Below, one piece after another: positions 1 through 22,073 of a stretch of 22,618 bases of DNA. The stretch comes from a virus. Position numbers and translations under genes: made by a program. The stretch covers positions 1-22,618 of the IMG/VR virus record IMGVR_UViG_3300037233_000050; one strand, given 5' to 3'. Under the pieces are notes generated by a model that worked only from the letters and a program-made list of their open reading frames with translations, ran no database searches and had not been told where the DNA came from. Each line of letters starts with the position of its first letter. Within the stretch, counting starts at the first letter, position 1.

Positions 1-1556
1 GGTGTGGCCCCGGGCGGGGACTCAGCCGCGGTGCCGGTGACGATGAGGGCGCCCGAAGCCCAGGACTCCCAAGACGACGTGTTGTCGCCCGAGACGAGCC
101 TCGCGGGACCCGCCGTGCCGCCGCCGGCCGCGCCGCCGATGATCGCCGTTGTGCCGCCCTCCGCGCCGGTGCCACCGGCCGACGAAGTCACGATGGTGTT
201 GCTCCCGTTCGTGCTGGCCGGCGTGACGTTCGACCCGCCGATGGTGATCGCGGCGAAGGTGTTGGTAGTCCCGATGTTGATTGGCGAGTGCGCCGCGCTC
301 GTGATGGCGTCGATCGTAATCGACCCGTCTGCACTCATTATCGCCACACCCAAGGCCGACGTCGTAATAACCGACGTGCCGTCGCCAGATTCGATCCCGG
401 CACTGCCCGCGGTACCGGAGCCCGTCTTCGGCCCGCCAAGGATTGCTACGTTCAACCCGCTCGTGTTGCTGGCCGTGGGCGCGGCGGGCTGGATCGGAAA
501 CGTTCCGCTCGTGCCGGCAAAAGCTGGGATCACGATCCCGTACGCGTCGATTCCGAGGCTCCCGGTCGTCGGGTCGCCGTAGACGTAAATGTTGCCCTTC
601 GTAATAGGCAGCGAGGTCGGTTTCGTCGTCGACTTGAAGATCCCAAGGCCGCCGTAGCCGCCGCCGAAATCCTGCCCTCCTATTCCGACCGAGTAGCCGC
701 CCGGCTCAAGTACCATTCCGGTGGCCGCAAACGTTGCGTGGTCCACGTTGGCGGTCCGAATGTTGACGCCGAGTGCGCCATTGACGTACGTGTCGGGACC
801 GGACGACAGGAGCGCGTAATTCGAGATGCTCGGCGAGGCGATGTTCATCCAGAGCGAGGGGTAACTTCCATTCGGGCCGAACTGAGCGACGGGCGTGCCG
901 GTACCGATCGTCATGCCGCTCGACGCAACAGGGAAATTACCGCTTGCGCCCGTGGCGGACACGACGGCCGTGGCGACTGCGCCGGAGCCGGAGGAGATCA
1001 CGTCCCCGGTCGTCGAGGTGTAGCCTCCGCTGCCGCCTCCCGTGGGGCCCGTGGGTCCAGTCGGACCCGCCGATCCCGTGGGGCCCGTGGGACCCGCACT
1101 GCCGGTCGCTCCGGCCGGGCCCGTAGCGCCGATTCCCGTGGCTCCGGCGGGTCCCGTGGGACCCGCACTGCCGGTCGCTCCGGCCGGCCCCGTGGGGCCC
1201 GTAGCGCCTCCACCCCCTGCGCCCCACGTGATCACTCCCGCGTTGTACACGGGCGTCGTGTTGCTGCCCGTGGGACCTGGGAGAGCGACGCCTCCTAGAT
1301 GCGTGTCCACGTAGGCCTTGTTGGCTGCGTCGGTCGACCCCACCGGAGCTGCCACGCGAGCAATGCCCAGGCTCAAGCCGTTCTTGACCTCGAGAACGCC
1401 CGCGTTGTCGTTGAGGGTGATCGGCGTGAGGCCGCTCTGTCCGATAAGCCAGAAGGGTCCCAGGGTGCCCTGCTGATTCGTGTAGGGCTGGGCCTCCACC
1501 CCCTGCGCCCATCCAAGCGCGACGAGAAGAGACGCGGAAATCAGGGAGTATTTCAT
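1..1556 (-). CDS. collagen-like tail-fibre-type protein with signal peptide (3' end outside window)
   Basis: An open frame of 518 complete codons running off the left edge. The N-terminus [18 protein letters not shown], ending V-E-A before Q23, is a good Sec signal peptide with a signal peptidase I site. Then comes a tail-fibre motif ([17 protein letters not shown], near residue 80), a collagen-like Gly-X-Y run of 56 codons (1041-1208; 8 triplets, a Gly-Ile break, 10 triplets, mostly G-P-T and G-A-T), a Gly/Ser linker and a long Gly/Ser/Thr-rich beta region ([19 protein letters not shown]). Collagen-like stems are known in phage fibres and surface filaments; a signal peptide is not usual for virion proteins. 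An in-frame ATG at 1568 would add MGAR. Either an exported surface protein or an unusual fibre. Confidence 0.75.
1084..1187 (-). repeat. 69-bp tandem duplication in the collagen-like stem
   Basis: A 35-bp segment at 1084-1118 recurs exactly at 1153-1187, a period of 69 bp (23 residues). Since 23 is not a multiple of three, the duplication leaves the Gly-Ile break seen in the Gly-X-Y register. Confidence 0.85.
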
Positions 1557-1573
1557 ACGGGCACCCATAGAGA

Positions 1574-1590
1574 GATGGCCGATAGCCATC
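1574..1590 (-). other. small hairpin just before the collagen-like gene
   Basis: GATGGC and GCCATC pair around a 5-nt loop, 6 nt upstream of the first possible ATG (1568). No purine-rich SD is visible near either ATG (1568 or 1556), so the hairpin occupies the place where one would be expected. Confidence 0.4.
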
Positions 1591-1623: not shown

Positions 1624-2265
1624 TCACACGGAGCCCGCTTCGACGAAAATCTCCGCGACGCCCGACGTCGGCAACCCCGTGACAGTCGCCAGGACTCCGA
1701 GAGCGGACGATCCCCAATTTCCGATCACGTCGAAAACCTGGAGACCCGCCACCTGCAAATTGCATGCGGGATTTACTGCGTTGCCCAGGATCAGGGTCGC
1801 GGCTCCGAAGTAGCCTAGATTGAGTGTCACGGCGCCCTCTGCCGTGAAGGCGCCGATCACGTTGACGTAAACCCGCCAATATTTGCCGCCAGCCGGAATG
1901 AGTTGCGGGCTCGTTCCGCCTCCAGGCCCGATCGTAAAATCGACAGGTCCAAAATTTCCCGTGCCTTGCGGCCCCGGCTGATACTGAATGCTCCCATCGG
2001 GCTGGAGGGTAGCGACGAGGATTTGCCCCACCGTGGGAGCCGTGGGCTGCACCGGCGTGCCCTGGATCGCGTTCGCGTCGACGGCGAGCGGATTGCTCGG
2101 CGGGGAGATCTGCTGCTGGCTGGCGATCTGAATATTCTGGAGCTGTCCAAAATACCCGCTCTGCGCGCCCGTCAGATCCGGCGTCCCATAAACGAGCCAC
2201 GCGACCGTCTGGTACGGCGGGATGACGAGCTGTCCCACCATGCTGTAGGAATAGAGCGGATACAT
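1624..2265 (-). CDS. beta-rich structural protein, unknown
   Basis: A 213-aa protein. The first ~50 residues ([20 protein letters not shown], then [11 protein letters not shown]) and the C-terminal third ([29 protein letters not shown]) show alternating beta patterns; the middle is Pro/Gln/Gly-rich with [14 protein letters not shown]. Its start follows TGAGCC after the previous stop, identical to the junction of the 1039-aa gene. With its neighbours it makes a set of small beta proteins before the collagen-like fibre, so it is probably an appendage subunit. No family is recognised. Confidence 0.65.
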
Positions 2266-2268
2266 GGC

Positions 2269-2703
2269 TCAGGACTGCATCGGCCCGTTGAAATAAACGG
2301 AGGCGCTTTGGCCCGCGGCCGAGGTCGTGGCCGTGTACACAACTCGGACCCATCTGGACCCGATCGGGAACTCCGGGATCCACTGGTAGGCACCTTGCGC
2401 CGCGACGGCGAGACTCACGCCCGGAACGGTCACGGCATCGTCCGGGTTGCCTGCGGTTCCCGTTGCCCCCGGAGCCGGGATGCCTCCCATTCCGCCGCCG
2501 CCGAGTTGGCCCGGCTGACCTCCATCGAGGGCGTTCGACGTCTGGAAAGTGATCGCTCCGGCAATCGTCCCGGTCCCCCGGATGACGACGGAGACCCCGA
2601 AGAAGGCAATGGATCGCTTGTCGACCCAATTCGACTTGAATGAGTTGTTCGCCGCCGTCAGCGCGGCGTTATCGGGAACGAGTAAAAGGACGTTCGTGTT
2701 CAC
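2269..2703 (-). CDS. small beta-rich structural protein
   Basis: A 144-aa protein started by GTG behind the strong SD. The pattern LLVPDNAALTAANNSFKSNW, a Gly-rich loop in the middle (GQPGQLGGGGMGGIP), AYQWIPEF and GSRWVRVVYTATTSAAGQSA matches small beta-sandwich proteins found among the appendage genes of many environmental phages, with a conserved W-x-x-x-x-x-G-x-R-W-V-R-x-x-Y-T ending. The Gly-rich loop looks inserted. Likely a virion surface or baseplate-like component; function is inference. It is separated by TGAGCCATG from the next gene. Confidence 0.7.
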   Translation of the reverse strand: MNTNVLLLVPDNAALTAANNSFKSNWVDKRSIAFFGVSVVIRGTGTIAGAITFQTSNALDGGQPGQLGGGGMGGIPAPGATGTAGNPDDAVTVPGVSLAVAAQGAYQWIPEFPIGSRWVRVVYTATTSAAGQSASVYFNGPMQS

Positions 2704-2750: not shown

Positions 2751-5291
2751 TCAAGACCCGTTGACCAGAGCCTTCTGACTTCCGGTCAAAAAGCTCTGGA
2801 GGGCTCGATCCTGGCCCTTCGGATGGTTCCCGGAGTTCTGCACCCCGTGCTTCGGACCGAGGGCCGCGTTGCCGGGCGAGTTGAATGTGCTCTGAAGCGT
2901 GGCCGTCGTCGCTCGGGATTTCTCGTCCAGGTCCGTTCCCATGAGGATGCCCATCGAAAGGCGCTGCTGGTAGGTCAAATCCGGCTTGCTCTTCATCGCC
3001 TCGTCAACAAGAGCCATCCGCATCTTTTGCAGCGCGCTCGGATTCGTAGCGGCTGCGATAGCCACGTCGTAGGGGCTGATCGTGTTCGACTTCACGAGGC
3101 CGAGGAGCGACGTGGGATCGGCCGCGAGAGTCAGGACCCGTTCGTAGCGCGCCTTCACCGAGGGCGAGACGCCGGGATCGACCGACGATGCCGCGAACGG
3201 GTGCGCCTGACCCATGCTCTGATCGACAGGCATCACGGACTGGATGACCTTCATCAGCCGGATCTGGTGCTCCGTGTAGGCGTCCGCTACGGGTCCAAGC
3301 CCTTCGTTCCGAAGGGGTGCGGTCACGGCGGCCAGGTGATCGGCCACCTGTTCCGGGTGCGCCTCGTATTGCGAGACCGCACGGCGAAGGACCGTAATCT
3401 GATGCTCTCTCGTCTGTCCGACGCCGCCGCCTGGAATGAACCGGCCGATCGACGCCTCGATGTTCGCGCGATGGGTCACGCTCTCTCGAGCTCCAAGCGA
3501 CGCGAGAAGCTCTTTCGCCTTCGTCGCGATGCTGCTTTCCATCGCCTTCATCGCATCGAGAGCGAGGCTCGTGTTGGGCGTTGTGGATCCTTTGGCAACC
3601 TTCACGGCATCACCAAACGCGTTCCCCTCGTAGGCGAGGCCGCGGAGCTTGCCGAAAATCAGCGCTCCCTTGATGCCAGCATGTGCGGCCACCGAGACCG
3701 GACCCCAGCCCATCATCGAGGCCGCCATGTGAACCACAGACCATTCTGTCAGCCGACGCGTGGCGCCCCTGGCGAGGATTTGGGCGATCTCCTTGATCGG
3801 TAAACCCATCGCCTTTGCTGATCCAGGCTCCGCGCTCACGTGATCGAGGATCATGTTGAAGGCCGAGAGAGCGCGCTCCTTTTTGAGCCCCTCCAGAATC
3901 TTCGATCCGCCAATCTCCGTCGCTGCCTTGTCCTCGGCCGCCAGGAGGTTCTGACGTACGATCCCAATGGCATCGTGGCGGACCTGATCCGATACCCCCT
4001 GGAGCACGGCCGGATCCTCCACGAACGCCTTGAGCTTGTGCGCGTCGGCGAAACCGACCTCGGGATCGCGAAGTAACTCTCCAACGTATTCTTGCACCTT
4101 GCCGAGCTGGCCCAGCTTGTCGACCGCTCCCAGATCTTCGCTGATTTTCGTCAAGGCGTCGCTCACGGTCGCCGTCTTGCCGTCGAACTTGTCGAGCGCG
4201 CCGATCGCCTTCTCGGCCTCTACGCGAGTCGACTTCAGGTCGTTGATCTTCTCGATGGCGTCGCCGAGCTTCGTCGAGTCCTTGACGCCAGCTTCCTCCA
4301 GCATGGGGGCAATCTGCAGACGGATCTTGTCGACCACTTCCGGCTTGATGCCGAGCTTGTCCGCGATGACATCCTGCGCCGCGCTGATGGCCTCGGGCGC
4401 TGCCTGCTCGGCTCGAGATGCCAGGGCCCCTACGGCCTTGCCTCCGAGTGAGAAAATCGCATGCAACCCGATGTTGCCCCCGACGCCCAACGCCAGCGAT
4501 TCGGCCGCATGCGCCGCGTCCCCGTTGATCGCGTTGGCCGCAGCCTCGGGAGCCGCGTACACGGCACCCTCGATCGCCAGCTTGGCGGCGGTCCCGAGCT
4601 TGGCGATCCGTGTCGTCGCCGTGAGTGCCTTCGCCGCCTCCCCCGCTCCGAGAGCTCCCGCAATCTCGGAGGGGATACGAGCGGACCAATAGACGGCAGG
4701 GTGCTTGGCCTCTTCCGCAGAGCGAGCCGCCTCGACGGCTTCTTGCTGCTCCGGCGTGCGACCTCCAGGCAACCGATTCCGAAGGGCATCGGTGAGCGGC
4801 TGGAACGGAGCCGCCACCGCCGCCGCCGCGACGTCCAGAGGACCGGATCCGAGTCCGGTGATCCCTCGCTTGGCGTAGTCCTCCTTGAGAGCCTCCGGGC
4901 TGTAGCCCTCGATCCCAAGCTTGGCTTGCTTCTCGGCCTCGGCCGCCTGCGCCGTGGCAGCGGTTCGCGCATCGAGCGCCCGATCGCTCGCGAGCGTGTA
5001 GCCCTTGTCTCGGATGGCCTGTATATCCGAGAGCGAATGTCCCTCGACGTGGAATTCTTGACCCGACTTGTCGAACGCGCGGATCAATCCGTCCGGCGTC
5101 AGATCGGCATCGCTAACCGCCGTAGGAGCCTGGACCTGGGCCGGCGTCTGCGGCGCAGAGGGCGCGACCGGAGCCGATGGCGCAGCCCCATCGGATGCCG
5201 GCGCGTACCCCTTCGCCTTCGCCGCCTCGAGCTCGGAAGCGTCGATCGTAAATCTCTCACCGGCCGGGTTGGCGATCTGAATGTCAGGCAT
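2751..5291 (-). CDS. large probable ejection protein with N-terminal repeat
   Basis: An 846-aa protein. Residues 3-33 and 70-102 are two copies of a short module (IQIANPAGERFTIDASEL...KGYAPAS and IRAFDKSGQEFHVEGHSL...KGYTLAS), separated by an Ala/Pro linker. The rest is helical, with amphipathic or hydrophobic stretches that could enter a membrane (DVAAAAVAAPFQ near 155, SLALGVGGNIGLHAIFSLGG near 265, HMAASMMGWGPVSVAAHAGI near 520) and coiled-coil-like parts between. Large size, low-complexity ends and last place in the ejection cluster suit a P22 gp16- or T7 gp16-type protein; no peptidoglycan-hydrolase motif is seen, unlike T7 gp16. Short TAGCCGATG junction upstream, weak SD. Confidence 0.68.
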   Translation of the reverse strand: MPDIQIANPAGERFTIDASELEAAKAKGYAPASDGAAPSAPVAPSAPQTPAQVQAPTAVSDADLTPDGLIRAFDKSGQEFHVEGHSLSDIQAIRDKGYTLASDRALDARTAATAQAAEAEKQAKLGIEGYSPEALKEDYAKRGITGLGSGPLDVAAAAVAAPFQPLTDALRNRLPGGRTPEQQEAVEAARSAEEAKHPAVYWSARIPSEIAGALGAGEAAKALTATTRIAKLGTAAKLAIEGAVYAAPEAAANAINGDAAHAAESLALGVGGNIGLHAIFSLGGKAVGALASRAEQAAPEAISAAQDVIADKLGIKPEVVDKIRLQIAPMLEEAGVKDSTKLGDAIEKINDLKSTRVEAEKAIGALDKFDGKTATVSDALTKISEDLGAVDKLGQLGKVQEYVGELLRDPEVGFADAHKLKAFVEDPAVLQGVSDQVRHDAIGIVRQNLLAAEDKAATEIGGSKILEGLKKERALSAFNMILDHVSAEPGSAKAMGLPIKEIAQILARGATRRLTEWSVVHMAASMMGWGPVSVAAHAGIKGALIFGKLRGLAYEGNAFGDAVKVAKGSTTPNTSLALDAMKAMESSIATKAKELLASLGARESVTHRANIEASIGRFIPGGGVGQTREHQITVLRRAVSQYEAHPEQVADHLAAVTAPLRNEGLGPVADAYTEHQIRLMKVIQSVMPVDQSMGQAHPFAASSVDPGVSPSVKARYERVLTLAADPTSLLGLVKSNTISPYDVAIAAATNPSALQKMRMALVDEAMKSKPDLTYQQRLSMGILMGTDLDEKSRATTATLQSTFNSPGNAALGPKHGVQNSGNHPKGQDRALQSFLTGSQKALVNGS

Positions 5292-7261: not shown

Positions 7262-8025
7262 AGGAATCCTCCCACAAGGCCTCCGGCTCCTTGGAGTGCG
7301 GCGCCTGCAAGCTTAGTGTTTGCCTGGGCCGCGTTGTTGAACGCGGTGGACTGGATCTGGGAATTGCCGAGCTGGCTCTGCACTCCGAGCTGTTGCCCGG
7401 CGATAGACCCTTGCTGCTGCGCGAGATCGGCCGCTTGCTGGGCGCCGAGCTGGGTCGTGTTCGCGGCGAGGTTCGTCGCCTGATTGCCTTGGGCGATCTG
7501 ATTCGCTTGCCCGCTCGCCTGGAGCCCCTGTCCCGCGACGCTCCCATAGAGTCCACCCTGCGCCGAGAGCGCGCCGAGTTCCTCTGCGGTACGTCCCTGG
7601 ACCGCGTTTTGCGCCACCTGTTGCTGGCCTTGCGTGAGAGCATTGCGAGCGGCGAGCTGGGCAGCGGCTGGATCGCCTGCACCCCTCGCGCTCCCAAGCA
7701 TCGATTGCGCGGCGGCAAGATTCTGTTGGCCCTGCTGCTGCGCCTGCACGTTCGCGAGCGACGGCCCGTTGCCGGCCGCCATCTGTCCGTAGGTGTTCGC
7801 CAGGCCTAGCTGCCCGTTGATGCCGGCCGTGGTTGCCGCGTTCGTGTTGGCCTGGATCGGCCCTCCCGCATTGGCTACGAAAGAGCCCGCGCCCGTTTGC
7901 CCTAGCTGCATTCCAAGCTGGCCCGCGAAGGCTCCGGCCGGATTGTTGAAGGCCTGCTGATTGATGTTGTACGGGTTATCTTGATACATGCCCGTACCGA
8001 GCATCGAGGGACCGGCTTGCGTCAT
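7258..8025 (-). CDS. Gln/Ala-rich probable ejection (internal virion) protein
   Basis: A 255-aa protein composed largely of Ala, Gln, Gly and Asn, with a helical middle (QQGQQNLAAAQSMLGSARGA, AARNALTQGQQQVAQNAVQG) and a hydrophobic Gly-rich C-terminus (LAGAALQGAGGLVGGFL). It is the first of four consecutive genes of this kind after the tail hub, the same place as the ejection proteins of P22-like phages (gp7, gp20, gp16), which leave the head with the DNA and form a conduit in the cell envelope. The C-terminal segment could insert in a membrane. It overlaps its neighbours by 4 nt on both sides (ATGA before, TTGA after). Confidence 0.7.
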   Translation of the reverse strand: MTQAGPSMLGTGMYQDNPYNINQQAFNNPAGAFAGQLGMQLGQTGAGSFVANAGGPIQANTNAATTAGINGQLGLANTYGQMAAGNGPSLANVQAQQQGQQNLAAAQSMLGSARGAGDPAAAQLAARNALTQGQQQVAQNAVQGRTAEELGALSAQGGLYGSVAGQGLQASGQANQIAQGNQATNLAANTTQLGAQQAADLAQQQGSIAGQQLGVQSQLGNSQIQSTAFNNAAQANTKLAGAALQGAGGLVGGFL

Positions 8026-11000
8026 TTGCTGTACCCGCTCGTTCGGATTAGGTTACTCGTCGGCATGCGAACCCCGCCCGGCAAGCTTAGCACTTCCAGA
8101 TTGATCCCGTTCAAGGTGTAGCAGGGGCCTGCCTGAGGGTTCAAGGCCGTCAGTGCGAGCTGGATCGCCTGACACCTCGGGTTCTTGAAATTCAACTGAA
8201 ACTGGAGGTTCGCGAACTGCCGGTTCGCCCAGGTCCCGGCCGGGAATCCCCACACCGGGAGCCCTCCCCAGCGATTTCCGGCAATCGACGAGTTCACGAT
8301 CGCGCTCTCCACGATCGACGGATCGTAGTCGTAGGCCACATCGACCTGCATCAGGCACGGACTCTCGAACTGACCGAGGATCGTGGCGCTGTAGCAGGCC
8401 ATGTACCCCTGCAAATTCCCGTTCAGCTTGAGCCAGGGAGTCGTCACCTTCATCGCTACGGGCGTCACGACGCCGCCGTAAGTCGAGTCCTCCCAGACGG
8501 TGCCGGTCGTGTCCTGCACCTGGCACGAGCCGTCCTCGCGCAGGAGGACGAGCTGGTCTTCCCACACCGTGGCGTCGACCGCGGGAAGTCCGGCCCATGT
8601 GGTCCAGGCGCCGAACAGGTAGTTGTAGACGAGACACGTTCCTTCGGCCGTCGTGAAGGCGACTTCATTCGTCTGGGCCAGGAGGTTCGCGCTGGTGATC
8701 TCCAGCCCGTTGTACTCCTCTACCGGAGCGCCAATGTACGTGACCGATGTGTCCCGGCCGAGCAGATAAATCCCCTTCGCGCTCTTGAAGAGGAGCCCTC
8801 CCGGACTCCCGGTACAGAAGACCAGCGAGTTCGGGTTCGTGCATCCCACGTCGCTTACCAGGAGCTGCGCGTCGTTGAACTGGCCCGACGTGTCGAGCGG
8901 ATTCGGTCCGTCGCCGGCCAAGAGGAAGATCGACGTCTCCTTGAAGATGGCGAGCTGCGCATCGAGTAGACCGATCGCCGTGATGGCGCCTCCGCGCGAG
9001 TCCACGCCCTGCACGAAGCTCGTGTTCCAGTCGAGCGGAAGGGTGTTGTACTGCGAGAGGTCGAACTTGTTTTGGCTGTACCAGAGGACGTTCGGATCTT
9101 CGTCCGAGTTGATGAACAGCCGTTGCTGGTAGGCCGCGATGAGGGAGCATGCGGGCGGCCCGGTGTTCGAGAGCTGAGAGCCCGTGTAGTCGTTCTCGTT
9201 GGCCGCGATGTCCGCATCCGAGAGGGTGTCCAGGAAGCCCACGGCGTCAAGGGCCGTGTTGTTGATGAGCGGGGCGTTGTCGTTGGTGATCTGGTAGAAG
9301 ATCGGAAGGTTCGCCTGCGTCCGAAGGATCGCGATCGAGACGGGGGATCGGGGGTTCTGCTTGTCCGTCAGGCAGAGCGTTGGAACCACGATGTTCGCGG
9401 CCTGCCCTGCCGTGGCGGTCACCGTGACCGCCACGCCGTCTCCGCTCCGTTGAACCTGTCCGTAGTTGTCCGTCCACTTGTAGATCACCTTATATTGGTA
9501 TTGACCCGCCGAGAGGTTTCCGCCCGAGGTGAGGGCGACAATGCAGGAGTTCCCGCCGTTCGGGGCCGGACCGATCACCTCGGGAAATACGTGGAAGTTG
9601 TCCTCTACGACCGAGATCCCGTCGTAGATCTTCTTGACCCCGCCCACTATGTGCAGGTTGTTGTTGCTCTGCACAGAGTTGAACGCGTTGTCGTCCGCGA
9701 AGCCGGTCGAATACCCCGAGACGCCGAGGTTGACCGTCTGGGCGTTCTGAAAGCTCGTAAAGGGTCCCTTACGTTGTGCGGCAAATAGAAACGAGCCGTC
9801 TTCGAAGGGGTCGCACTGCGACAGGAGGGAGTTATTGCGAAGGCCTCCACCGTTGCTCGGGGCGTGCTTGGCGACCACCGTGAACGACGTGGCCCCGATC
9901 ACTCGTGTGACGGGGTTGGCCCCCGACCCGATGGGGTCGGTCAAACACAGCGTGAAATACGTGGCCTGGAGCGCGCTCGGGTAGACGACGTTGACGAAGA
10001 GGTTTCCCCCGCTCCTGAAGGGCTTCGATGCGAGCCCAGCGGACCGCTGCATCCCCACATAGGTCGCCACACCCGTCGAGGTAACCGTGTAGTTGTTGAG
10101 CGAGTTGGGGTTGTCCGGGCCGAACCCGCCGTTCGAGACCTCGCACGTGATGTTGCACGAGCCGGGGTCGATGCCCTCGATAACCGCGATATTGACCGAC
10201 GGCGCCGTTTGCAGCGTGATGGGTGCGAAGTAGGGCGTTAACGCGAGGTTGAATCTCTGGACGTGCGTCCCCGTGGCGTCGGACCATGCTACCCACGCGT
10301 TGGTTGCCGCCGGGTAAAGTCCCTCGGTACACATCGCGACCGTTTGCACCGTGAGGGTCGAATTGACGGGGGCGTTGCCACCCCAAAGTAGCCACAGCCC
10401 TGCGGTCGAGGCGTAGACGATTCCCCCGATCGGTGCGTCGTATGGGATCTGTTGGGTACCCGGGACGAACGGAAGAGCGTTATCCGACGGTAGCCCAGCG
10501 ATCCGCCGCGTGATGTAGATGGCGTCGGGTCGGTTAGCAAGGATGAGCGTCTGAAGGAACTGTGTATCACTGATGACGTAGACAATGGCCCACCCGGGCC
10601 CAATGAAGCTCGTGACCTTCGGACGTGAGCCGAACGCGTAGAGAAGCTGATCCTGAACGATGAAGGTCCCGGTCGTGTTGTCGATGATCGAGTAACGGAT
10701 CCCCTGCGATGCTGCTGGGAACGCCCGGTTGTCCTCCCAGACATACAGCGTCATGTTGTCGATCGTGGACGCGTCGGGGTTCGACTGCGTGGCAATCTGC
10801 GTGTTGATGACTCGCTGTTCGCCCGCGATGGCAGAGAACGCCGTCCCTTTGCTGACCCACACGCCTTGATCGGGATTCCACGAGTAGAGCGTCTCCCCAT
10901 CGAGGACGAGAAGCTCTCCGTTGAACGTGGTAATCGCCGCGCCGTTCGAGATGTTCCCGCCGCCCATGATGTTGGTCGACAGGGCGCTGAATCCCGTGCG

Positions 11001-11141
11001 AGGCTGGATCTGCCCCTGCACGAGGTACCGCGCATTGACGGCATCCTCCAGGTTCGGTTGATCTAGCGTGAACTTGGCGATCTTCGACTGAAGGCCGCCG
11101 TCGAACGCAAGCGCAAGAGACTGGGTTCCAGGGAACGGCAT
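8022..11141 (-). CDS. large tail-hub / packaged-DNA stabilisation-like protein
   Basis: A 1039-aa protein, the largest of the window. The opening (GLQSKIAKFTLDQPNLEDAV, NARYLVQGQIQPRTGF) and the later part (FINSDEDPNVLWYSQNKFDL near residue 675; GGLLFKSAKGIYLLGRD near 780; TCLVYNYLFGAWTTWAGLP near 835) are the style of the propeller-like proteins that close the portal in podoviruses (P22 gp10-type place). P22 gp10 is about 470 residues, so this one is roughly twice as long; residues ~200-560 look like inserted beta domains. It has at least 16 Cys. The start is an ATG 3 nt after the upstream stop (TGAGCCATG); its end overlaps the next gene as ATGA. Function in retaining DNA and seating fibres is inference. 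Confidence 0.7.
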   Translation of the reverse strand: MPFPGTQSLALAFDGGLQSKIAKFTLDQPNLEDAVNARYLVQGQIQPRTGFSALSTNIMGGGNISNGAAITTFNGELLVLDGETLYSWNPDQGVWVSKGTAFSAIAGEQRVINTQIATQSNPDASTIDNMTLYVWEDNRAFPAASQGIRYSIIDNTTGTFIVQDQLLYAFGSRPKVTSFIGPGWAIVYVISDTQFLQTLILANRPDAIYITRRIAGLPSDNALPFVPGTQQIPYDAPIGGIVYASTAGLWLLWGGNAPVNSTLTVQTVAMCTEGLYPAATNAWVAWSDATGTHVQRFNLALTPYFAPITLQTAPSVNIAVIEGIDPGSCNITCEVSNGGFGPDNPNSLNNYTVTSTGVATYVGMQRSAGLASKPFRSGGNLFVNVVYPSALQATYFTLCLTDPIGSGANPVTRVIGATSFTVVAKHAPSNGGGLRNNSLLSQCDPFEDGSFLFAAQRKGPFTSFQNAQTVNLGVSGYSTGFADDNAFNSVQSNNNLHIVGGVKKIYDGISVVEDNFHVFPEVIGPAPNGGNSCIVALTSGGNLSAGQYQYKVIYKWTDNYGQVQRSGDGVAVTVTATAGQAANIVVPTLCLTDKQNPRSPVSIAILRTQANLPIFYQITNDNAPLINNTALDAVGFLDTLSDADIAANENDYTGSQLSNTGPPACSLIAAYQQRLFINSDEDPNVLWYSQNKFDLSQYNTLPLDWNTSFVQGVDSRGGAITAIGLLDAQLAIFKETSIFLLAGDGPNPLDTSGQFNDAQLLVSDVGCTNPNSLVFCTGSPGGLLFKSAKGIYLLGRDTSVTYIGAPVEEYNGLEITSANLLAQTNEVAFTTAEGTCLVYNYLFGAWTTWAGLPAVDATVWEDQLVLLREDGSCQVQDTTGTVWEDSTYGGVVTPVAMKVTTPWLKLNGNLQGYMACYSATILGQFESPCLMQVDVAYDYDPSIVESAIVNSSIAGNRWGGLPVWGFPAGTWANRQFANLQFQLNFKNPRCQAIQLALTALNPQAGPCYTLNGINLEVLSLPGGVRMPTSNLIRTSGYSK

Positions 11142-13798: not shown

Positions 13799-14146
13799 TC
13801 AATGCGGAGGAGAGCCGAGCCCCGCATCGTTGAAGAGCGGAACCCAATACCCGCCAGGCGCCGCAGGCAGGTAGGACGAAGCATCCACCGCCATGGGGTT
13901 ATAGTAGTAGTACACCACCGTGCCCGCGTCGTTGGCCACGCCCGCGAGCGTGCCCGCCGGCATCGCCGTCTGCGGAGGCATCAGGGTGGAGAGCACCGTG
14001 GGAGCCTGGACCGTCACCACGAAACTTTGCTGAGCTCCAGGATTGGCCATGGCGCCCATTTTGTGGGGAGCCGAAGCCGAGGTTTCGCAAGCCCCCATCG
14101 CAAAGGCGAGGACTACGGAGGCGAGTAACGCACAGACGATCTTCAT
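13799..14146 (-). CDS. predicted phage-encoded lipoprotein
   Basis: A 115-aa protein with a lipoprotein signal: M-K-I-V start, hydrophobic core CALLASVVLAFA and lipobox M-G-A-C, with C20 as the lipidated residue after signal peptidase II cleavage. The frame is open to an ATG at 14167 that overlaps the upstream stop, but AAGGAGA lies 5 nt before the ATG at 14146, and only that start gives a clean signal peptide. The mature part has QQSFVVTVQAPTVLSTLMPP, DAGTVVYYYYNPMAVDAS and a Pro/Gly-rich end, perhaps one small beta domain. Glu follows the Cys, so outer-membrane sorting would be expected in a Gram-negative host. Known phage lipoproteins include spanins (Rz1) and exclusion proteins (T5 Llp); neither is recognised here. 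Confidence 0.75.
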   Translation of the reverse strand: MKIVCALLASVVLAFAMGACETSASAPHKMGAMANPGAQQSFVVTVQAPTVLSTLMPPQTAMPAGTLAGVANDAGTVVYYYYNPMAVDASSYLPAAPGGYWVPLFNDAGLGSPPH

Positions 14147-17536: not shown

Positions 17537-19507
17537 TTACGCGGCCTGCGCCGGCTGGAGGCCGGACTGCGGAGCCGTGGGGGGCGGGGGAGCCTGGGCA
17601 GGCTCGGCAAACATCTGTTGAATGAGAGCGAGCTGCGGATCGGGCGCTCCGAGCATCGTGCAGAGCTCGTCAATCCACATCCGCACGAGCTGCAAGCGCT
17701 CCTCGGGGCACCCGTCGATCTGAAGTTGATTGTACGTCGCGGTCGAGACCGCAAGCGCCAGCTTCAGGTTCATGTATTTCTCCGGGTGCGTGTACTTGTT
17801 CTCCTCCACCATCTCCGCAAGCGACTTCTCGCAGAGGCGCAGAGAGCTCGTCGCGAGCTCGATCTCGTCCTGCAAGTCGGGATCGATGTTGAGGAGCTCC
17901 ATGCCCCTCTCGAACGAGATGTAGTGATTCGAGATGAAGTCCGTGACCGTCTGAATGCGACCGGCGGCCGTCGCCGGGAAGCCGGATACGGTATCGCACT
18001 TGATGACGAAACAATCGTTCGCGGCGGCAATCTTCGACCACGGGATCGACTTGATGAATTTGTTTTGCTTGTCCGTGTAGTCGACCGCGTATTCCTTGTC
18101 CTTCTCGTAGGCTTCCTTGCCGAGCTCGACGACGATCTCCGCGCAGTCGACAAAGAACTTCTCCCAATTCTTGCTCACCTGAATGAAGCGCGAGCTCTCG
18201 ACGTCGACCATCGTACGCATCGCGATGGCGCTGTTGACGCCCGGCTGCTTGTTCCCCTGGGCGCTCGTCGCGCTGACGCCGATCTTCCCGTAGCCGTTCG
18301 TAATCCACCACTGGAGGTGATTGTAGATCTCGGGCCCGGTCGACTGCGGAGAAATGAACGTCGGCGGCATGACGCCATTTGAGAAGCGGCCCTTGACCAT
18401 GCGCGCGATGTTGTTCGATAGCAGCACGTCCTCGGATACCTGCGATGCCGTATCCACGAGAATGAGCGGCGATGCCTGGAGCTCCTGACACTGCTGAATG
18501 AACATCAAGATCTTGTTGATCTCGAGCTGACACGAGAGGAGCTCCTCCGCGATGCCGCGACCCACGAACCCGGCCGCCTTTTTGTACCAGCGAAACCAGG
18601 CGAATGGGAACTTCTCGCGCTTGTACTCCTTATTCTCGAGTACTTCGTCATCGATCGTCACGACGTAGCGGCCCGGCGTCTTGCCGCATGCGAGGTGCCA
18701 CGACTTCCGAATGACGGAGAACCCAACCACCGAATCCTGACCGCGGAAGATGATCGGCCGCTGCTGGCTCGTACGCTGGATCTTCTCGAGCGCTTCGGGA
18801 TTGTCCCGGTACCGCTCGAGGAGTAGCTCCGTCTGGAGCATGATCACCCGATGCATCGACCGAGGCTTGCCCTTGGCGCCGTCGTAGCGGTCGATTTTCA
18901 CCTCGTCGATGAAGGACCAGTCGGCCTCGATCCGGTTCGTCTGCGGATTCAGGTACCATTCGATGCCGCCGAGGCCGTACAGGCTCCCGTCACGGAACAC
19001 GTCATTGTTGGCGATCTCGTAGAGGCCGCACTCCTGAAAGACGCCGTTGACGAACTGAGTCTGCTTCTCGGCCTTCAGCTTGTCGAAATAGTCCGCGCCC
19101 GACGTGATGAAATAGGGCGCCGGGTTGTCGCGGGCGACCTTGGAGTTCACCGTGTCGATACCGGATTGAATGATGTTGTAGACCGGCCGATTCCCGGTGC
19201 TGTTTGCGCCACCACCCGGCGTCAGGCCCGACCATCCAAGCGCCTCGTAGTTGCCGTAGAGACGCGCATACCGCATGAAGTCGTTGCGCTGCTGGTAGTT
19301 GTTATTGTCGATCCGATCCACGAGCTGCGCGATGGCGCCCCCAACCCTGTCATCCGGGAGCGTCCACCAATCCTGGTAGTCCTCCGCACTCCCGTTCAGG
19401 CTGCGGAATCTTCGCTCCGGCTTGGCGTCGGTGTCCTTGATCGACGTGGCATATTTCGTCTTGCCCGTCTTCTTGCTGGTGACCTTCGCCGTGTAGTTCT
19501 CAGGCAT
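17537..19507 (-). CDS. portal protein
   Basis: A 656-aa protein that should form the dodecameric ring at one head vertex through which DNA is packaged and ejected. Evidence is its size, its place between terminase and scaffold/capsid genes, and portal-type stretches: a long helical N-terminus (residues 55-90), NIIQSGIDTVNSKVARDNP (111-129), the wing strands around GSLYGLGGIEWYL, a long helix with LSCQLEINKILMFIQQCQELQ, and VGVSATSAQGNKQPGVNSAIA-like sequence before the C-terminal helices. The C-terminus is Pro/Ala/Gln-rich and probably flexible. An AAGGAG lies 7 nt before the ATG. The length suits P22-type portals, which carry a long C-terminal barrel, though I cannot confirm a barrel here. 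Confidence 0.88.
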   Translation of the reverse strand: MPENYTAKVTSKKTGKTKYATSIKDTDAKPERRFRSLNGSAEDYQDWWTLPDDRVGGAIAQLVDRIDNNNYQQRNDFMRYARLYGNYEALGWSGLTPGGGANSTGNRPVYNIIQSGIDTVNSKVARDNPAPYFITSGADYFDKLKAEKQTQFVNGVFQECGLYEIANNDVFRDGSLYGLGGIEWYLNPQTNRIEADWSFIDEVKIDRYDGAKGKPRSMHRVIMLQTELLLERYRDNPEALEKIQRTSQQRPIIFRGQDSVVGFSVIRKSWHLACGKTPGRYVVTIDDEVLENKEYKREKFPFAWFRWYKKAAGFVGRGIAEELLSCQLEINKILMFIQQCQELQASPLILVDTASQVSEDVLLSNNIARMVKGRFSNGVMPPTFISPQSTGPEIYNHLQWWITNGYGKIGVSATSAQGNKQPGVNSAIAMRTMVDVESSRFIQVSKNWEKFFVDCAEIVVELGKEAYEKDKEYAVDYTDKQNKFIKSIPWSKIAAANDCFVIKCDTVSGFPATAAGRIQTVTDFISNHYISFERGMELLNIDPDLQDEIELATSSLRLCEKSLAEMVEENKYTHPEKYMNLKLALAVSTATYNQLQIDGCPEERLQLVRMWIDELCTMLGAPDPQLALIQQMFAEPAQAPPPPTAPQSGLQPAQAA

Positions 19508-20285: not shown

Positions 20286-20524
20286 TCGCTCTGGCTTTCG
20301 CTCGATTTGCGCCAGGGGAGCTTCCCCTCGTACCGCTGCCTGATGAGCGAATATTTGCTCATTACCTTGGACATCACGGGGTCGAGCGGTTGCGTCGGAC
20401 GGAAACTGATCGCGTGCGCTCGCATCGGCGCTCCGCATTCGGCGCAGCTCTCATCGCCCAAGATCTCCGCTTGCTTTCGGCATCTGGAACACGTGGCATC
20501 ACGAAGGATCATCGAACCCATCAT
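20282..20524 (-). CDS. short zinc-ribbon protein
   Basis: An 80-aa protein with CxxC-x11-CxxC (C12, C15, C27, C30), the signature of a small zinc ribbon, followed by a basic tail with no recognisable domain. I chose the ATG at 20524 because GGGAG lies 4 nt upstream; an ATG further in (20512) and a longer frame back to 20548 are also open. It overlaps the end of the terminase gene by 26 nt and ends in a TTGA overlap with the next gene, so it is translationally coupled on both sides. Small zinc-ribbon proteins next to terminase genes are common in phages, but their role is generally unknown. It may assist packaging or bind nucleic acid; this is inference. Confidence 0.75.
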   Translation of the reverse strand: MMGSMILRDATCSRCRKQAEILGDESCAECGAPMRAHAISFRPTQPLDPVMSKVMSKYSLIRQRYEGKLPWRKSSESQSD

Positions 20525-22073
20525 ACTGCTCCCGGTTTCGCTGGACAAGTTGCCTCAAGAGGGCCTTTACCGGGTCGGCCTTCATCGTGGGCTTGGGCGC
20601 CGAGAGCCGCGAGGCTTCCGACAGCGCCAACATCGCGGGCCAGGCATAGGAAGGGTACCGCTCGACGTCCGCCATCCCGACAGAGAACCCGGATGCCGTA
20701 TCGAGCTTGCGAAGCGCCATCAGATCGCCGCGCACGTTCGCGTTCGGTGGGAGCTCGAACGCGCCACGTCCTAGTCCCGCTAGCATCTCGTTCGCGAGAT
20801 CGGGAAGCGTCGCATCCATCGTTCGTACGTGGACCCCCATCCCTTCCGCTTGCTCGACGTGCGCAGCGCCATCGGAATGACTGAACACGGAGTCGAGACC
20901 GTATTCCGAGAGTCGCTCCTTCACAGAGTAGAGAGCGAGGAGCGGATCGATAAACCCTCGGCATTCGCCGAAGTCGACGATCGTGCATCCGCCTGGGCCA
21001 TCGTGTCGTTTTGCGGCAATGACGAGAGCCCAGGCGCCATGCGCAAGAAGGGGCGCCATCGTAGCGACGTACTCGACGCCTTGCTCGCGCGGAAGCCGAT
21101 CGTCTGCTCGAGTGCGGAGCGTAAGCACTTCAGAATCGAAGAGCGCATCTTCCGTACCCTCCGATGGGATCGCCGCGTACTCCCGCAAAAATTCTTTCTC
21201 GCTCGAACAGAGGCGCCGAGACATCTGCTTCGTGAGCTCGGGACGAGCGATCCATGTCTCAGCGAAGGCCACGCACTGGAATTCCGAATCGCCCTCGTCG
21301 AAGGCGCGAGCGTGCGCATCCACCCTTGTCATCGGGCTCGAGATAAGGAAAATCTTCGCGCCCTTCACGCCGGCCATCGTAGGCCGCACGCTCGCGAGAA
21401 CCTCCGTCGCCACCGGGTTATTGTTCTTGTCACGCCACTTGGATACCTCGTCGCATACGATGACGATGCTCGTGAACCCGGACACGGCGCCCACCGTCGC
21501 CGCGTACACGACGAACGCGATCTCCGCTTCCGTGAGATCGATGCGCTCGGTCAGTGATTTGTGCGCGATGCCGAGCGCGCTGAGGATGCCATCGATCGTC
21601 TTGATCCGGTCTTTCGCTTGCTCTTTGTTCTGGCTGATGATGGCAGCGACCGCGGTATCTCCCGGAGGGATCTGGTGCGAGCCCATGAGCGCCTCGAGAA
21701 CGACCATGCGGCAGATCGTCGAGCTCTTGCCCCCACGGCGCCCCACGCGCAACACGAACTGAATGCACGCGGCCATGTAGAATTTGGCAAGCGCCTGCCT
21801 CCACCATGCCGTGCTCTCGGGCCAGCCCGCAATCACCAGGCGCCGGTCCAGCTCCTCCAGGTAATCGAAGGGGCACGTGGCGTGGGGTACCGCTTCGCGG
21901 AAGCTCGCTCGCACACGCTCAAGCGTCGAGTCACCAGGCGCTACGTCCCTCTTCGGCGCCCGCTTCGGTGCGGCTCTAGGAACCGGGATGGCGTCGAAGT
22001 CAGGCTCGAAAAGCTCCGAAGCCACAAAGGCCTCGAGCCACTTGTCCGAAGGGGCCGGCGGGATCTTGGCCAC
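20499..22073 (-). CDS. terminase large subunit (DNA-packaging ATPase)
   Basis: This 524-aa protein is the motor that pumps phage DNA through the portal into the empty head and cuts it. The N-terminal ATPase has a Walker A motif GRRGGKSS (residues 111-118), a Walker B IVIVCDEV (203-210, D208 and E209) and a coupling motif LISSP (243-247). The C-terminal half from about residue 330 follows the RNase H-like nuclease layout: a strand YVATMAPLLAHGAW (335-348), FSHSDG (397-402) and RYPSYAWPAMLAL (472-484). In related terminases the first and third of these carry Asp (as in DPA and HADYAPA); here Ala340 and Ser475 sit there, so the nuclease centre looks incomplete. The start is GTG, 2 nt after the upstream stop; length is normal for the family. 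The next gene begins inside its 3' end. Confidence 0.93.
   Translation of the reverse strand: MAKIPPAPSDKWLEAFVASELFEPDFDAIPVPRAAPKRAPKRDVAPGDSTLERVRASFREAVPHATCPFDYLEELDRRLVIAGWPESTAWWRQALAKFYMAACIQFVLRVGRRGGKSSTICRMVVLEALMGSHQIPPGDTAVAAIISQNKEQAKDRIKTIDGILSALGIAHKSLTERIDLTEAEIAFVVYAATVGAVSGFTSIVIVCDEVSKWRDKNNNPVATEVLASVRPTMAGVKGAKIFLISSPMTRVDAHARAFDEGDSEFQCVAFAETWIARPELTKQMSRRLCSSEKEFLREYAAIPSEGTEDALFDSEVLTLRTRADDRLPREQGVEYVATMAPLLAHGAWALVIAAKRHDGPGGCTIVDFGECRGFIDPLLALYSVKERLSEYGLDSVFSHSDGAAHVEQAEGMGVHVRTMDATLPDLANEMLAGLGRGAFELPPNANVRGDLMALRKLDTASGFSVGMADVERYPSYAWPAMLALSEASRLSAPKPTMKADPVKALLRQLVQRNREQYDGFDDPS

Follow-up and report, generated by a model that had tools for sequence, protein, structure and literature searches.

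The window analysed here, an IMG/VR virus record of 22,618 bases whose main genes all lie on the minus strand, ends in a gene for a collagen-like, fibre-class protein (P0001) that begins with a predicted Sec signal peptide. The usual view of dsDNA tailed phages is that their tail fibres assemble inside the cytoplasm without being exported. The reading favoured here, which we hold at about even confidence, is that P0001, encoded by a podovirus-like phage, is an accessory protein of the fibre class that is exported by the Sec pathway, cleaved, and either acts at the host envelope or is released at lysis. Collagen-like phage fibres themselves are well known (PMC3368898). The new element is a predicted Sec signal peptide heading such a fibre; a search of the open literature, with most subscription papers outside its scope, found no description of any tailed-phage fibre-class protein headed in this way.

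The collagen-like protein and its signal peptide

The P0001 gene is the last of the window and has the following features:

3..1556, minus strand: P0001, collagen-like fibre-class protein with signal peptide, 518 aa, running off the contig (open reading frame; PHROG tail-fibre matches via the collagen stretch)
1557..1589, minus strand: possible N-terminal extension, 11 residues to ATG 1589, used if the start is 1589 or 1568, with the signal peptide kept either way
1491..1556, minus strand: predicted Sec/SPI signal peptide, residues 1-22, cleavage VEA↓Q (sequence; crude score; codon usage in the coding range)
1305..1337, minus strand: phage fibre motif, 11 residues (residues 74-84), recurring as 130 matches listed in fibre-type ORFs of viral contigs (sequence)
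1035..1208, minus strand: collagen-like stem of about 20 Gly-X-Y triplets, whose register breaks once (sequence; PHROG)

The open reading frame spans 3..1589 and is 3'-open at base 3. Its 518 residues are counted from the ATG at 1556, and alternative in-frame ATGs are found at 1568 (four codons upstream, the start used in the original prediction) and at 1589. The fibre motif and the Gly-X-Y stem that had been predicted are both present, with the stem spanning roughly residues 117-174 as two blocks between which one residue is missing. The predicted mature N-terminus is QPYTNQQ..., with about 51 aa between the cleavage site and the fibre motif, and the stem is followed by some 340 Gly/Ser/Thr-rich residues for which no family match was found. 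All PHROG matches of P0001 are to tail-fibre or tail families and pass through the collagen stretch, while a Pfam search returned no domain, N-terminal attachment domains included. A single-sequence AlphaFold model has a mean pLDDT of 33. No homologues were found in viral contigs, in plasmids or in INPHARED, the last giving weak matches to tail fibre and minor tail proteins around the motif, and two genome scans for a prophage route to the host were without a match. The protein contains no cysteine and thus no lipobox. Because cysteine and homologues are both absent, the mature part of P0001 gives no independent sign of export.

The N-terminus itself shows the full anatomy of a Sec signal peptide: MK (or MGARMK) forms the n-region, a hydrophobic core free of charged residues follows, and the c-region ends in VEA↓Q. 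A home-made, crude Sec score, which combines a positive n-region, the mean hydropathy of a 10-residue uncharged core and an A/V-x-A site, gives 3.89 from each of the three possible starts. This value was equalled or exceeded by 3 of 20,000 composition-preserving shuffles and, in a background of 1,362 phage ORFs no shorter than 150 aa, by 2. The original prediction of a Sec signal peptide is supported by both the anatomy and the rarity of the score. P0001 also has the best score, and is the sole credible case, among the 130 matches listed in the motif survey, in which ORFs with several motifs are counted repeatedly and both the window and a copy of it, L001, figure as well. Likewise, it carries the sole credible sense-frame signal peptide among the 156 phage ORFs with complete N-termini listed in a survey of collagen-like sequences. 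The other scores above 3.2 among those ORFs belong to L001, which is identical in sequence, and to an ORF of L237 that was discounted because its GPVGPVGP repeats are the pattern of a collagen gene read in antisense.

The fibre locus in related phages

P0001 lies on the same strand as, and adjoins, fibre-locus genes that are syntenic in four relatives, and further virion-type genes extend down to this locus:

1624..2265, minus strand: fibre/adaptor protein, 213 aa, N-terminus conserved in four relatives (YTMVGQL...TPDxTGxxSGYFGQL)
2269..2703, minus strand: 144-aa protein, in the place of the relatives' 134-137 aa proteins by synteny
2751..5291, minus strand: virion-type protein, 846 aa, lying upstream of the fibre locus, with syntenic counterparts in four relatives
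8022-11141, minus strand: virion protein, 1039 aa
14849-16285, minus strand: 478-aa protein, taken as the major capsid protein from its place and conservation
17537-19507, minus strand: portal (phrog_156)
20499-22073, minus strand: terminase (phrog_2)

Searches with the portal, virion protein and fibre converge on one small clade of uncultivated phages that share this virion operon (G001, G002, G004 and G005, together with fragments and one distant genome), and a search of INPHARED with the portal and capsid gave no match. The four named genomes are 36-40 kb long, and their best-conserved virion proteins have 46-66% identity to those of the window phage. In all four, an internal protein is followed by a fibre protein with the YTMVGQL...GYFGQL N-terminus and then by variable fibre-type genes; in G001, G004 and G005 the 134-137 aa protein lies between the internal and fibre proteins. 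The relatives' own fibre genes in the locus lack a signal-peptide-like N-terminus, as does one of the variable genes of G005, which encodes a 132-aa collagen protein, and no signal peptide was found in the fibre locus of three of the four fully read relatives (G001, G004 and G005).

The fourth, G002, has two. Its 643-aa gene (L015:7885-9816) starts 10 bases past the fibre gene and encodes a protein beginning MNNTRYITFAAAAIAIAAMVFG...TVGA, whose signal peptide was flagged in an all-frame scan with a score of 3.99. The next gene (L015:9813-11321), whose start overlaps the preceding stop (ATGA), encodes a 502-aa protein (P0002) beginning MNARTHRVILSLIVIASAMSAAISWRNPEARASA. This second signal peptide is the weaker call because it was recognised by eye and is absent from the scan's list; its start is buried well within a longer open frame, and charged residues stand between core and cleavage site. 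Each of the two proteins contains 16 cysteines (2.5-3.2%, versus 0-1.6% in other G002 virion proteins), a content to be expected if they fold outside the cytoplasm. Since the 643-aa protein and P0001 do not align, the arrangement seems to have arisen from different modules.

The 502-aa protein matches the tail-fibre family phrog_4201 over residues 153-384 (E=2.6e-20). Together with the motifs GGQSLSNGG, HGEAD and YAHMTLPGY, read by eye, this match makes it a putative SGNH/SASA esterase-like protein; Pfam and PDB searches returned nothing on that identity, and the single-sequence AlphaFold model has a mean pLDDT of 35. A lectin-like similarity between P0003 of G002 and a 266-aa protein of G001 was considered and dropped, as BLASTP gave it no support. 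Searches for further copies of P0002 and P0003 found only G002 itself.

Both signal-peptide phages are GC-rich members of the clade, the window phage at 63% and G002 at 65%, with G001 at 49%, G004 at 40% and G005 at 38%. Related hosts of the two phages could explain this pairing, as could two independent gains; five genomes are too few to tell.

Several other observations were made in these genomes. Midway through the virion operon of the window, a 115-aa ORF beginning MKIVCALLASVVLAFAMGAC... (13799-14146, minus strand) has an exported or lipoprotein-like N-terminus and a strong Shine-Dalgarno before its ATG at 14146; it is a second signal-peptide gene of this phage and has no family match. 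BLASTP finds no counterpart of the large terminase subunit (20499-22073, minus strand) in the four relatives, unlike the portal, capsid and large virion protein, which are 46-66% identical; a terminase exchange is possible. In G001, a lipoprotein-like ORF (LVVSTLTGC; 35396-35800, plus strand; L013:15796-16200) lies on the opposite strand beside the gene for the 902-aa internal protein and is a candidate envelope protein.

Export of a fibre-class protein and competing explanations

Since P0001 and two proteins of the G002 fibre locus start with secretion signals, the sequences suggest that phages of this lineage may export fibre-type proteins, beyond only building them into the particle. P0001 would be made in the cytoplasm alongside the late virion genes, directed by its signal peptide to export late in infection, and cleaved at VEA↓Q. 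Outside the inner membrane it would probably form a collagen-stemmed trimer, destined for the periplasm, or for the surface if an outer membrane is crossed or the host has none; read to the contig edge, P0001 shows neither an outer-membrane anchor nor a means of crossing that membrane. There it would act at the envelope of the infected cell, or lysis would release it. Against this reading stand three of the four fully read relatives, in whose fibre locus no signal peptide was seen. As its most likely role, P0001 would occupy or modify a surface receptor, so that neither re-adsorption nor superinfection takes place. The 502-aa companion in G002, related to tail fibres and bearing esterase-like motifs, would suit a role as an enzyme that attacks surface glycans. 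Host coating, shielding or aggregation by P0001 is a guess.

A broader proposal, which we advance tentatively and as somewhat doubtful, is that the lineage keeps a cassette slot for exported fibre-class proteins immediately behind the fibre gene, filled by the collagen fibre in the window and by the cysteine-rich and the tail-fibre-family, esterase-like proteins in G002. Receptor-binding modules would thereby have become secreted tools, used on the surface of the host or in its surroundings while infection proceeds or at lysis. If fibre-class proteins are indeed exported here, receptor-binding modules would be in use at the host surface before lysis, whether in receptor occupation, surface enzymology or egress.

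The main rival, which we consider unlikely, is that the hydrophobic N-terminus remains uncleaved and serves as a tail anchor, not an export signal, with P0001 staying in the virion or in a membrane. The virion operon, the fibre motif and the collagen stem would all suit a virion protein, and uncleaved SAR-type signals do occur in phage proteins (PMC6116005). However, the relatives' fibre proteins attach at this locus without such a segment, no other fibre among those listed in the motif survey carries one, VEA↓Q suits a cleavage site that would be superfluous in an anchor, and the cysteines of the two G002 proteins point away from the cytoplasm. The virion anchor mimicking a signal peptide, offered with the original prediction as its alternative, is thus weakened by the relatives and by G002. 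Quite improbable, in our estimate, is the capture of a host surface adhesin as a moron, a non-virion protein resembling the Bdellovibrio MAT fibres and made to alter the host surface, although here too P0001 would be exported. MAT fibres are an example of tail-fibre-like trimers that carry signal peptides and are exported by bacteria (PMC10769870), and the signal-peptide phages are the GC-rich ones. The codon usage of P0001, however, fits that of the other genes of the same phage, the plasmid search was without a match, and the stretch before the motif is far shorter than the MAT domain described below. P0003 of G002 has a D/A/S/G-rich linker of a kind associated with secreted proteins of some GC-rich bacteria, which would favour such a capture.

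It is very improbable that the start is misplaced, with translation beginning at a GTG at residue 20 or a TTG near residue 61, which would make the hydrophobic stretch untranslated or artefactual. The GTG is present, and no clear Shine-Dalgarno precedes 1556, 1568 or 1589, but several well-supported genes of this phage likewise lack one. The codon usage of the 22 signal codons looks coding, standing at the 13th percentile of in-frame stretches and surpassing 87% of +1-frame and 98% of +2-frame stretches, and such a signal rarely forms by chance. A misplaced start is also unlikely because genes of the G002 fibre locus, at the syntenic position, begin with independent signal peptides. A promoter and terminator scan found nothing.

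Likeness to known fibres and envelope proteins

The closest phage parallels are the collagen-like tail fibres of phages and prophages, such as EPclA and EPclB of E. coli (PMC3368898; PHROG 366/819/8745), which share with P0001 a Gly-X-Y stem between non-collagenous parts and a place in a phage structural operon. The EPcl proteins begin with a phage-fibre N-terminal (PfN) domain, whereas P0001 starts with its signal peptide and matches no N-terminal domain in Pfam; a signal peptide is unmentioned in the text of the EPcl paper (PMC3368898). The Bdellovibrio MAT fibres (PMC10769870) resemble P0001 in that a signal peptide precedes phage-tail-fibre-like, trimer-type sequence, but their genes are bacterial, whereas that of P0001 lies in a phage operon. 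Moreover, all 21 MATs have a beta domain of about 130 aa right after the signal peptide where P0001 has about 51 aa before its motif, a comparison made by description. The place where a MAT fibre would bear an S74 or adhesive tip domain, the C-terminus, falls beyond the contig edge in P0001.

Phage proteins with signal peptides are known among endolysins (PMC6116005), the antiholin RI (PMC8385771) and Porphyromonas phage proteins (PMC10367356). Cleavage at the predicted site of P0001 would expose a Gln (window 1488-1490, minus strand), in keeping with the Bacteroidota 'Q rule' (PMC10367356); this agreement may be chance because both G002 signal peptides break the rule. For the putative role of P0001, the superinfection-exclusion proteins Llp of T5 (PMC9586334) and Ltp of TP-J34 (PMC3952083) are the nearest likeness, being envelope-bound phage proteins with a proposed effect on adsorption. 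Llp, which blocks the FhuA receptor (PMC9586334), is unrelated to P0001. Llp and Ltp are both small lipoproteins, in contrast to P0001, which is long and of fibre type and whose cleavage site is SPI-type, without a lipobox. Finally, the streptococcal adhesins Scl1 and Scl2 share with P0001 a signal peptide and a Gly-X-Y stem but, unlike it, are LPXTG-anchored; the NCBIfam match of P0001 to Scl arises through the collagen repeats only (24 bits versus a cut-off of 325).
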